Source of the DNA: Patescibacteria group bacterium
GTDB lineage: Bacteria; Patescibacteriota; Patescibacteriia; Patescibacteriales; UBA12465
Direction of reading: 5' to 3'
Length of the DNA stretch: 47,161 nucleotides
NCBI GenBank assembly: GCA_028681575.1
Contig: JAQUHX010000005.1
Location: 1 to 47,161 of the forward strand
Positions 43,727 to 47,107 of the stretch are shown here, piece after piece. The notes under the pieces were generated by a model, which was given only the letters and a program-made list of their open reading frames with translations, searched no databases and was not told the DNA's origin. How positions within the stretch are numbered: position 1 is the first letter of the stretch; each line of letters starts with the position of its first letter. A program made the position numbers and the translations under genes.

Positions 43727-44260
43727 TTAATACTTTATGACCTGTAAATCATCAGGATTTGGACGGGCTATCCACCAATCTCGGCTACTGACTACTTTTA
43801 TTTCACGGCGATACTCATTTATTGCCACGCTCTTTATATGATGAGCGGCAATTTTAAATATAACTGTTTCTATTTTTTCGCCACAGATAGCGCCTTGGCA
43901 CAACGCTTCTGTTGATTCATAGCCTCCGATAAAAATAATGTTTATCCCATTAACCCCGCCAGCAATTACCTGACTTTTTTGTCTTAGACGTGATCTGAAT
44001 TCTGATTTCCATTGATGAGTAATAATTTCCTTTTCGGAATAGAGTACGGATGTATGCCCGATAGTGTCTCTGGCATCAGGATTTTGATAAACCAGGGAAC
44101 CGATTGAATCAACTACATCTACAATTTTAATATCAGGGTTAGATATTTTCCTGGCGTCATAGATTACCATTTCACGAAATTCATCTATTGGTTCTGTGTT
44201 AGGGAACCCAGCACAAGATAAAACCAAGATGAAACTGATTAAAAACAAATTCTTTTTCAT
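43727..44260 (-). CDS. Predicted lipoprotein, unknown function
   Basis: Signal peptide MKKNLFLISFILVLSC with lipobox-like LVLSC. Confidence 0.7.
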   Translation of the reverse strand: MKKNLFLISFILVLSCAGFPNTEPIDEFREMVIYDARKISNPDIKIVDVVDSIGSLVYQNPDARDTIGHTSVLYSEKEIITHQWKSEFRSRLRQKSQVIAGGVNGINIIFIGGYESTEALCQGAICGEKIETVIFKIAAHHIKSVAINEYRREIKVVSSRDWWIARPNPDDLQVIKY

Positions 44261-44429: not shown

Positions 44430-44443
44430 CGATAGTAGCCCCT

Positions 44444-44599
44444 AGGGGAATTATCGCGCTCGCTTTTCTTCCGAAAAGCTCACTTATCCAGGGTTGGCGT
44501 CCGAATATCCCCCGGGTATTCGTCCGACATTCGTCTGCATCCTCGCCGCTCGAAATAGCGGCTCGGATTCGACTCATTTCCAACTAGTTCGATTCCCCT
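44444..44599 (-). ncRNA. Structured repeat element U1
   Basis: P1 AGGGGAAT/ATTCCCCT; P2 GGTTGG/CCAACT; hairpins GCTTTTC-TTCC-GAAAAGC, GAATA..TATTC, ATCC-TC-GCCGCT...AGCGGC-TC-GGAT; strand inferred from flanking terminators. Confidence 0.7.
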
Positions 44600-44609
44600 C
44601 GGCTAACGC

Positions 44610-44659
44610 CGACTAAACAAAAGCACCGCAACTTTGTTGTGGTGCTTTTGTTTAGTAGT
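44610..44659. terminator. Long terminator-like hairpin T1
   Basis: ACTAAACAAAAGCACCGCAAC...GTTGTGGTGCTTTTGTTTAGT. Confidence 0.75.
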
Positions 44660-44884
44660 CTTAAAATCCGATATTTCAGAAAATTTAAGCGAAATTATTA
44701 GAGAAATTGATAGATGGGCGGAAGTTTTGGGATAAAATACTGTTAGAATAAGATACCGCTTTATTCTAGTATAGACTATTTTATTAGAGTATAAATGTAT
44801 ATTGAATAACATCTTAATATGGTATATGTCTAATTTATATAAATCATATTAAGGATAAGTTATAACGTGGAAAGACTAAGGTTG

Positions 44885-44913
44885 TTGACAATCGTCTAAT
44901 AATCGTCTATAAT
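44885..44913 (+). promoter_or_regulatory. Consensus sigma70 promoter of fic gene with overlapping repeats
   Basis: TTGACA-17 nt-TATAAT; direct repeat AATCGTCTA x2 and GTCTA-TAAT-TAGAC palindrome. Confidence 0.85.
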
Positions 44914-44923
44914 TAGACTATAT

Positions 44924-45952
44924 ATGTTTGTACCAAAATACACAATTACAAATAAACTATTAGCTAATATTAAAAGAATTAGTGAAATTATCGTCGATCT
45001 TAACAATCGAAATTTTTCACGTGTAGTTTTGCTCGACATGGAGCGTCGCGCTCGAGAAATATCGGCTTATTCTTCAACTAGCATTGAAGGTAACCCACTG
45101 CCCTTAACGGATGTAAAAAGAATTTTAAAAAATAGTCCAGAAAATGCCAGGGATAGCGAAAAAGAAGTTTTAAACTATAATAAAGCCCTGATTGAATTAG
45201 ATAATTTAATTAAAGCCGAAAAGGAAATTTTTAATAAAGGCTTATTACTAAAAATACAACAAACAATTACGAATGGGTTGATTGAGAAATATCGATGCGG
45301 CAAGATTCGCAAAGAATCAGTTTTCGTTAATAATCCCAAAACGCGACGAACTATTTATTTGCCACCAGATTATCAGGAAGTAAATAAGCTTCTGGAGGAA
45401 TTATTTTTTTATCTTGATAAGAATAAAAATATAGTAGACCCTTTGATTTTAGCTGGAATATTTCATAAACAGTTTGTTGTTATTCATCCCTTTGTTGACG
45501 GCAATGGACGAACTACTAGATTGGCCACTAAGGTGTTACTTGCCAAAATGGGACTTAATACTTTTTATCTTTTTAGCTTTGAAAACTATTATAATCAAAA
45601 TGTTAGCCGCTATTTTCAGGAAGTGGGTGTACTGGGTAATTATTATGATATTAAAGATAAAATTGATTTCACTTCTTGGTTGGAATATTTTACCGATGGC
45701 ATCATTGATGAGCTCTTGCGAGTTATTAAGGAGCTTGAAAAAGAAAAAATTTCTCCCGATAATGAATTAAAAGAATATCACTTAAAAATAATCGCTTATA
45801 TAAAAAAGAAAGGTTATATTACCGATAGAGATTATTCTGCGTTAACCAAGCGAGCTAAGCCAACTAGGAATTTGGACTTTAGAAAATTAATAACCAATGG
45901 GATTATTGAAAAAGTTGGCAAAGGGAAGGCAACTTATTATAAACTGAAGTAA
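44924..45952 (+). CDS. Fic family protein (class II-type) with C-terminal winged-helix domain
   Basis: HPFVDGNGRTTR Fic motif; N-terminal inhibitory motif STSIEGN; C-terminal wHTH-like region. Confidence 0.93.
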   Translation: MFVPKYTITNKLLANIKRISEIIVDLNNRNFSRVVLLDMERRAREISAYSSTSIEGNPLPLTDVKRILKNSPENARDSEKEVLNYNKALIELDNLIKAEKEIFNKGLLLKIQQTITNGLIEKYRCGKIRKESVFVNNPKTRRTIYLPPDYQEVNKLLEELFFYLDKNKNIVDPLILAGIFHKQFVVIHPFVDGNGRTTRLATKVLLAKMGLNTFYLFSFENYYNQNVSRYFQEVGVLGNYYDIKDKIDFTSWLEYFTDGIIDELLRVIKELEKEKISPDNELKEYHLKIIAYIKKKGYITDRDYSALTKRAKPTRNLDFRKLITNGIIEKVGKGKATYYKLK

Positions 45953-46004
45953 TGGTTTTCTATATAAAGACACAAAGGGTCCCTAAGGCAAGTTATAAAA
46001 AAAT

Positions 46005-46586
46005 ATGAAAGAAATTGAAATATTATACACCCTACAAACAGATATTGAAGTAGCAAAAAAACTTTTAACAGAGAAAGTAGGCTTTGTAGAAGAGATAATA
46101 GTGCATGACTGGTATTATGCTCGTCATGATATTAAAGACTTGCTTCCTGACGAAGAAGGGCGTCTTCATTCGGCGCTCAGACTTCGCAAAAAAGGAAACG
46201 AGCACTATATTACTTATAAAAATGACCACTTTGATAACAATGAAACATGGCTTTTTAGTGATGAACATGAGACATTAGTTGGCGACATTTTGGTGATGAG
46301 GGATATTTTTAGTAAGTTACTATTCACTGAGCTTGTTCAGGTTCTAAATAAAAAATTCTATTACCAAAATGACAATTACGAAATTGTCCTTGAGGATGTT
46401 TTTAGTTTGGGTCATTTTATTGAGATTGAGTTTAAGGGTGACACTAAAAATTTATCATACGACGATATACAAAAGAAAAAAGAGGAAATGCGCTTATTTC
46501 TTAAATTAATTGGCATTGAAACTGGAGAGGAGATGAATGCAGGAAAGCCAGAGCTTTTGCTACAAAAAAATAAAGAGCGAAAATAG
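46005..46586 (+). CDS. CYTH domain (class IV adenylate cyclase/triphosphatase-like) protein
   Basis: KEIEILYTLQ...LRLRKKGNEHYITYK...EIVLEDVFSLGHFIEIEFKGD charged tunnel pattern. Confidence 0.8.
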   Translation: MKEIEILYTLQTDIEVAKKLLTEKVGFVEEIIVHDWYYARHDIKDLLPDEEGRLHSALRLRKKGNEHYITYKNDHFDNNETWLFSDEHETLVGDILVMRDIFSKLLFTELVQVLNKKFYYQNDNYEIVLEDVFSLGHFIEIEFKGDTKNLSYDDIQKKKEEMRLFLKLIGIETGEEMNAGKPELLLQKNKERK

Positions 46587-46607
46587 TATTTTTATTAAGC
46601 AACCCCT

Positions 46608-46760
46608 AGGGTAATTCCGCCTCAACTTGCCTTGTGGCAAGTCTCGTTGTCTAGACGGACTCACTAAAAACTCGCTCTTCGCTCGTTTTTATCGTCGCTC
46701 GATTAATCGGGGGCGCTCCGCTTTTCATCGCATCTCACGCGCCGTCTGTTCAATTCCCCT
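46608..46760 (-). ncRNA. Structured repeat element U2
   Basis: P1 AGGGTAAT/ATTCCCCT; P2 AGACGG/CCGTCT; hairpin ACTTGCC-TTGT-GGCAAGT; same layout as U1/U3. Confidence 0.6.
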
Positions 46761-46769
46761 AGTGCCGAT

Positions 46770-46820
46770 ATTAAACTAAAAAAGACCCGATATTTATCGG
46801 ATCTTTTTTAGTTAGTAGTC
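46770..46820. terminator. Long terminator-like hairpin T2
   Basis: AACTAAAAAAGACCCGATATTTATCGGATCTTTTTTAGTT. Confidence 0.75.
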
Positions 46821-46823
46821 CCT

Positions 46824-46978
46824 AGGGGAATTATCGCCCTCGCCCGCCGCCGGCAAGCGGCGGGCTCACTTGTCCTGGGTTGGCGTTCGACTTGCCCCCG
46901 GCAAGTCGTCCGACGCTCGTTCGCTCGTTCCGGCTTCCGCCGTCGCTCGCGTCTCGCTTCCAACCTGTTCGATTCCCT
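46824..46978 (-). ncRNA. Structured repeat element U3
   Basis: P1 AGGGGAAT/ATTCCCT; P2 GGTTGG/CCAACC; hairpins GCCCGCCGC-N6-GCGGCGGGC and GACTTGCC-CCC-GGCAAGTC; colinear with U1. Confidence 0.7.
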
Positions 46979-46990
46979 AACTCGACCATG

Positions 46991-47036
46991 ACGGAAACAA
47001 AAAAAGCCTGCTAACGCAGACTTTTTTTATTTCCGT
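46991..47036. terminator. Terminator hairpin T3 downstream (minus) of tRNA-Glu
   Basis: CGGAAACAAAAAAAGCCTGCTAACGCAGACTTTTTTTATTTCCG. Confidence 0.8.
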
Positions 47037-47107
47037 AGTCCCTAGGGGAATCGAACCCCTGTTACCAGGATGAGAACCTGGCGTCCTAACCGTTAGACGA
47101 AGGGACC
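47036..47107 (-). tRNA. tRNA-Glu (anticodon CTC)
   Basis: Acceptor GGTCCCT/AGGGACT, anticodon loop TTCTCAT, T-arm GGGGTTCGATTCCCC. Confidence 0.93.

Follow-up and report, generated by a model that had tools for sequence, protein, structure and literature searches.

We identified an undescribed family of structured units that lie at the 3' ends of tRNA genes, have been moved between tRNAs, and carry arms matching their targets. Three representatives (U1, U2 and U3) occur behind a tRNA-Glu gene in the window, the 47,161-nt stretch of DNA analyzed here. The window corresponds to contig 4 in a Patescibacteria draft assembly of 638 kb with 98% completeness. At the level of sequence, comparison between genomes shows the fold and the strand that forms it, the anchoring at tRNAs, arms that follow the tRNA unlike the bodies, and extra units beside a tRNA. 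Both the folding and the mobility of the units are well supported on these grounds. In the mode of action that we consider likeliest, with a probability of about one half, the units would be folded single-strand insertion sites that are mobile at tRNA 3' ends, the main rival being an RNA guide.

Read along the minus strand, on which the anchoring tRNA-Glu (CTC) gene is encoded (47035–47107), the array runs from the tRNA through a terminator-like hairpin (46992–47035) and U3 (46826–46980), a second such hairpin (46774–46814) and U2 (46609–46761, a diverged subtype), two cargo genes, a third hairpin (44612–44656), a mini-hairpin (CGGC-GTTA-GCCG, 44600–44611, minus) and U1 (44446–44600) to the flank. 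The terminator-like hairpins and the mini-hairpin were recognized by reading the sequence. The cargo genes encode a CYTH domain protein (46005–46586) and a Fic/DOC family protein (44924–45952), both on the plus strand and oriented opposite to the tRNA-Glu sense strand; the distal end of the cargo (44655–44682, minus) retains a tRNA 3' end remnant, GACTAC, with a TTTC-like motif at 27 nt. The general plan of a unit is a terminator hairpin followed by U and then by a copy of the 3' end of that tRNA. The copy of the tRNA-Glu 3' end that closes U3 (CCCCTAGGGACTAC) is at 46815–46828, and those closing U2 (46599–46612) and U1 (44435–44448) are degenerate; all three are on the minus strand. An earlier sequence-only reading of this DNA had proposed three same-strand structured elements anchored at tRNA-Glu. 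That array is confirmed behind the tRNA and on its sense strand, with covariance model matches of 164 bits for U3, 118 bits for U1 and 76 bits for U2, all on the minus strand. The terminator hairpin before each U, the tRNA 3' end copy after it, and the Fic/CYTH cargo were absent from that reading. Beyond U1 lies an ORF of 177 amino acids (43727–44260) that has no Pfam match and is missing from the locus in a sister genome; it is possibly older cargo.

The covariance model was derived from 27 elements, consisting of U1–U3 and 24 relatives, which were aligned for the covariation test with MAFFT, the structure not being used. In this alignment 88.9% of the stem cells are paired, compared with 69.2% after shuffling, and compensatory changes are found in 32 of the 35 pairs of the model. 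The covariation score is 0.535, against 0.204 for shuffled alignments and 0.06–0.13 for slid ones, and none of 500 shuffles scored as well. Sliding one side by a single column lowers pairing to 32–35%. P1 was kept outside these pair counts and its arms were assessed through the tRNA-tracking test described below. The covariation persists in an alignment of 67 distinct elements that was fitted to the model (0.614 versus 0.193). Additionally, P2, P3 and the inner hairpin were recovered in elements from other families and classes that were aligned separately, with compensatory changes at 16 of 20 pairs. This evidence is decisive that the fold with its covarying stems is real, and the earlier suggestion of a selected RNA or single-stranded DNA structure, made from three copies, holds in the larger sets, in which the controls collapse.

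The architecture comprises a 5' arm, a P2 stem (GGTTGG/CCAACC and covarying forms) around inner hairpins, a separate hairpin within GTGAG/CGAGC, and a 3' tail. Judged by covariation, the units are imperfect inverted sites with a folding single strand, as in integrons. On the tRNA-sense strand, G.T outnumbers A.C in the stems by 94 to 34, although 32 of these G.T cases come from one U-G-rich pair. GNRA hairpins are present on this strand in 38 of the 67 elements, compared with none on the antisense strand. Because of this G.T excess and the sense-only GNRA hairpins, the tRNA-sense strand appears by comparison to be the strand that folds, a result that is compatible with RNA and single-stranded DNA alike. 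A further subtype with the same arms and another interior (GATTCGAAAGCCGGAGGCGATGCGCACT) is poorly caught by the model (L088, at 2224 and 15793; L093, 198–420).

At curated thresholds Rfam identifies only the tRNA. No match to a U unit reaches the gathering threshold (Rfam 15) and nothing convincing was found for U1–U3 under relaxed limits; a known RNA family is thereby ruled out, and the sequence-only reading was right that no described family fits. No description of the units was found in the literature searched, which covered few subscription papers and no preprints. The covariance model search of related genomes that had been suggested as a check yielded matches in 43 of 98, with up to 11 per genome. 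In a wider sample of 389 Patescibacteria genomes the model matched 19, some of them outside the class, and relatives occur in genomes labelled Falkowbacteria, among others. A conserved 21-mer of U has no match in IMG/VR, and U3 has none among phage or plasmid records. One element is on a 3.1-kb contig of a Bacteroidales metagenome-assembled genome (L113), probably a misbinned Patescibacteria contig.

Among 115 mapped elements with enough sequence context, 72 start at most 120 nt beyond the 3' end of a same-strand tRNA or tmRNA gene, and none lies behind such a gene on the opposite strand. The remaining elements follow another element or cargo, or are located at the edge of a sequence. The anchoring genes include those for tRNA-Glu, Gly, Ser, Gln, Val, Lys, His, Asp, Arg, Asn, Ala, Met, Pro and Tyr as well as tmRNA. 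In one genome (G075) an element is found 65 nt behind the tmRNA gene (L053, 5401–5553), and its arm matches the tmRNA T-arm over 14 nt. As in tRNA-targeting elements, direct repeats of the tRNA 3' end are present at both ends of the units.

In its 5' arm, each U carries the reverse complement of the T-arm found in the neighboring tRNA. The match is perfect over 11 nt in 33 of 53 cases, and single matches extend over 14–19 nt. None of 5000 random re-pairings of arms and T-arms fits as well, and this holds for the five outer arm positions that are unpaired by the unit's own 3' strand. The arms also track rare T-arm variants: GTCC, GTTCAAC (His, with one mismatch elsewhere), CCA and CCG, and, as judged by eye, GTGC in G341. 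The bodies behave differently. When tRNA type is mapped on a tree of U bodies it changes 31 times, compared with 31.9 for shuffled labels, in a quick tree of short sequences with few strong branches; lineages specialized for one tRNA are ruled out by this tree. Where similar bodies are paired with different T-arms, the arm fits its own tRNA better in 68 comparisons, worse in 3 and equally well in 8, the pairs sharing elements and being non-independent. Since arms fit their own tRNA while the body tree ignores tRNA type, a unit that moves to another tRNA must also have its arm altered. The new arm may come from copying during insertion, from subsequent correction, or from selection; template-switch correction between inverted repeats could produce the match of arm to T-arm.

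Comparison of orthologous loci points to mobility. In a closed sister genome (G001) with the same tRNA-Glu and downstream radical-SAM gene, only the U1 unit is present and its terminator stands directly at the tRNA. The U1 ortholog there is 88.6% identical, terminator included. The window has approximately 2.4 kb more than this locus, consisting of U3, U2 and cargo between tRNA-Glu and the U1 terminator. It is possible that the difference stems from a deletion in the sister genome, which would need to be precise. Recent duplication in assembly, which could have explained the three copies trivially, is ruled out by their strong divergence and by the U1 ortholog in the closed genome. At a tRNA-Gln locus, G038 has 5.8 kb of cargo enclosed by a pair of identical 229-bp units, and G031 carries one unit that differs from these, the flank beyond being alike. 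A single cargo end present in two species, G036 and G023, has three different neighbors (L091, at 4506; L092, at 209; L093, at 198), the switch falling exactly after the tRNA 3' end, right behind CTCTCCGC. In the window's own genome, contig 22 begins exactly at the tRNA-Glu 3' end, and its first 127 bp are identical to 47035–47161 of contig 4. The overlap is exactly this 127 bp, like a branch in an assembly graph, and some cells probably have a different neighbor at this tRNA 3' end.

Cargo content is different at every locus. The Fic and CYTH cargo of the window has no integrase gene; other loci have a pair of HigB-like and HTH/peptidase genes, an EutH protein, and further ORFs named by eye only. 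Many distal ends of cargo (approximately 12 of 19, by eye) have the motif GTTCNRAYNNCGTCC at a distance of 27 nt to the tRNA terminus, which is likely a second kind of attachment half-site, and the U units themselves have no such motif. Ends of this kind were noted at L037 (2058), L052 (3428), L066 (4517), L084 (5034), L086 (2223), L088 (15793) and L051 (5207). A pattern search for the motif returned only four places, three of which show one cargo end with different neighbors. An island next to tRNA-Ser that contains a large serine recombinase also terminates in an end of the GTTCNRAYNNCGTCC type, and given this shared type of end the cargo may be moved by serine recombinases. Large serine recombinases that face the tRNA were found directly at tRNA-Ser 3' ends in L161 (3356–4861), L173 (7015–8595), L177 (9427–11127) and L180 (8235–9557). 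Those tested have Resolvase, Recombinase and zinc-ribbon domains, and the group resembles integrases that target tRNAs in Patescibacteria. In G025, the island that separates tRNA-Gly from a U unit encodes a 389-aa integrase and is an ordinary one.

Among the families tested, no recombinase family is common to all carriers. Each of the carriers G000, G001, G002 and G031 has one tyrosine recombinase, of Xer size and unlinked to the arrays, and the closed genome G283, which has five elements, has none. An integron integrase gene (intI) with attI was not found in any of these five genomes. Neither an IS110 (DEDD) transposase nor a Y1 transposase is present in G000, G001, G002 or G031, and the one reverse transcriptase among these four genomes is in G000. 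Serine recombinases are absent from G000, G038 and G436. The units are gene-free and have no integrase gene inside them. In or near the window array there is no integrase either, and the whole genome has one unlinked tyrosine recombinase of Xer size, which rules out an integron or phage integrase in cis in this genome. IS110, Y1 transposase and reverse transcriptase are likewise ruled out as a common partner by their absence from carriers. A serine recombinase as universal partner is unsupported, as it is missing in three genomes, though linked to cargoes. The enzyme may act in trans or belong to a family outside those tested, or some genomes may have relics only.

Based on these comparisons, we propose that U1–U3 are the structured part of non-autonomous mobile units of approximately 200–230 bp. 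The tRNA-sense strand would fold into the P2 domain with its inner hairpins, the separate 3' hairpin, and the closing helix P1, whose 5' strand is an inverted copy of the target T-arm. This strand can form 11 bp with the upstream T-arm or 6–7 bp with the 3' tail of its own unit. P1 would mimic or pair with the tRNA T-arm. Strand exchange at the tRNA 3' end, as with the folded attC sites of integrons, would then insert the unit next to a tRNA or tmRNA gene, restoring the tRNA 3' end and supplying a terminator. Repeated insertion adjoining the tRNA would build up arrays, with gene cargoes lodged within them. That single-stranded DNA rather than RNA is active, the way in which arms are rewritten, and an enzyme in trans are what we infer. 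Against insertion as single-stranded DNA, no enzyme was found, neither excision nor circles nor single-stranded DNA were seen, the inner sequence is more conserved than that of attC sites, and the sense-strand GNRA loops fit RNA too. More tentatively, the units may represent a new class of nucleic-acid-guided mobile unit, in which a folded strand addresses a tRNA gene through an arm of 11–19 nt that is rewritten from the new target on moving, with arrays collecting accessory genes and no known matching transposase in the genomes.

The alternative with the strongest claim, although we think it rather unlikely, is that U is a guide RNA, a tRNA-sense transcript that folds, binds a protein, and uses its 5' arm to target the unit to tRNA genes for insertion, comparable to bridge and omega RNAs. 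The conserved inner sequence, the restriction of GNRA hairpins to the sense strand (38 of 67 elements), the tolerance of G.U pairs, and the complementarity of the arm to the tRNA-sense strand would all suit such an RNA. However, inspection reveals no apparent promoter for units packed in tandem behind terminators, and the carriers G001, G002 and G031 lack IS110, Y1 transposase and reverse transcriptase. It is less probable still that U is a passive passenger, amplified by slippage or homologous recombination at tRNA 3' repeats, carried by islands of tRNA-targeting serine or tyrosine recombinases, and kept in register with the T-arm by template switching. Identical tandem units (L050, L065), the approximately 75-nt spacing of the inverted repeats, which suits template switching, and islands that end at U and have large serine recombinases next to tRNA genes would fit such a history. 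It leaves unexplained, however, both the selection for an elaborate covarying fold and the spread of bodies over all tRNA types; moreover, the U units lack the motif of cargo ends, and G000, G038 and G436 lack serine recombinases.

Two further explanations have little to recommend them. A role of U as a cis-acting RNA in the expression or 3' processing of the preceding tRNA would account for the constant distance behind tRNAs and tmRNA and for the complementarity between arm and T-arm within one transcript, but we regard it as very improbable, given that the same tRNAs have no U in many relatives, that U also occurs kilobases away behind cargo, and that the number and type of U differ between orthologous loci. 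We give almost no credence to the notion that the repeats are the ordinary attachment sites of a tRNA-Glu integrase island whose fold is incidental. Direct copies of the tRNA 3' end do bracket the units, and the tRNA-Gly island of G025 shows that ordinary integrase islands occur, yet covariation far above controls contradicts an incidental fold and the window array has no integrase in or near it, the sole Xer-size recombinase being unlinked.

Several known systems resemble the U units. One consists of integron cassettes with attC sites, which also form gene-cassette arrays with structured single-strand sites, entry at one anchored end, and toxin-antitoxin-type cargo. However, the anchor of the U arrays is a tRNA 3' end rather than attI, the integron integrase is absent, the arms copy the target T-arm, many units are gene-free, and the inner sequence is conserved. 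In place of the GTTRRRY/RYYYAAC boxes of attC, the ends of U are T-arm copies (GGGATTCGAAC ... AATCCC), as inspection of 90 elements revealed. Integrative elements that use tyrosine or large serine integrases to target tRNAs likewise insert at the 3' end and restore the tRNA with a direct copy. Unlike these, the U units are approximately 200 bp, lack an integrase, have a covarying fold and an extra inverted arm, and form serial arrays at many isoacceptors. Hairpin ends and short guides that pair with a single-stranded DNA target are found in IS200/IS605 elements and their REP-like derivatives, whereas the U arm is at least 11 nt and changes with the tRNA, and Y1 transposase is lacking in the four carriers searched for it. 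The IS110 bridge RNA is also a structured nucleic acid of approximately 150 nt with a target-matching segment; in U this segment is a strand of the closing helix P1 and not part of a loop, and most carriers, the same four genomes among them, have no IS110 transposase. MITE-like non-autonomous elements are small, multi-copy, gene-free and presumably moved in trans, but the U units are strictly at tRNA 3' ends and their arms are derived from the target.

Patescibacteria have very small genomes with few recognized mobile elements, and the U units bear on how these bacteria gain genes. They lie between variable cargoes (Fic, CYTH, toxin-antitoxin, transporters, radical SAM proteins) and mark tRNA genes as platforms for insertion. 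Addressing a mobile element through arms that track the target when the body does not would be unfamiliar. The covariance model allows arrays to be annotated phylum-wide, and with sites, junctions and sequences known the proposal is directly testable. The window's genome has a second tRNA-Glu (TTC) gene on contig 15 (L009, 8400–8502), where the contig ends 4 bases past the tRNA. These bases, CGGA, are the opening of the U3 unit, and this locus may also carry a copy.
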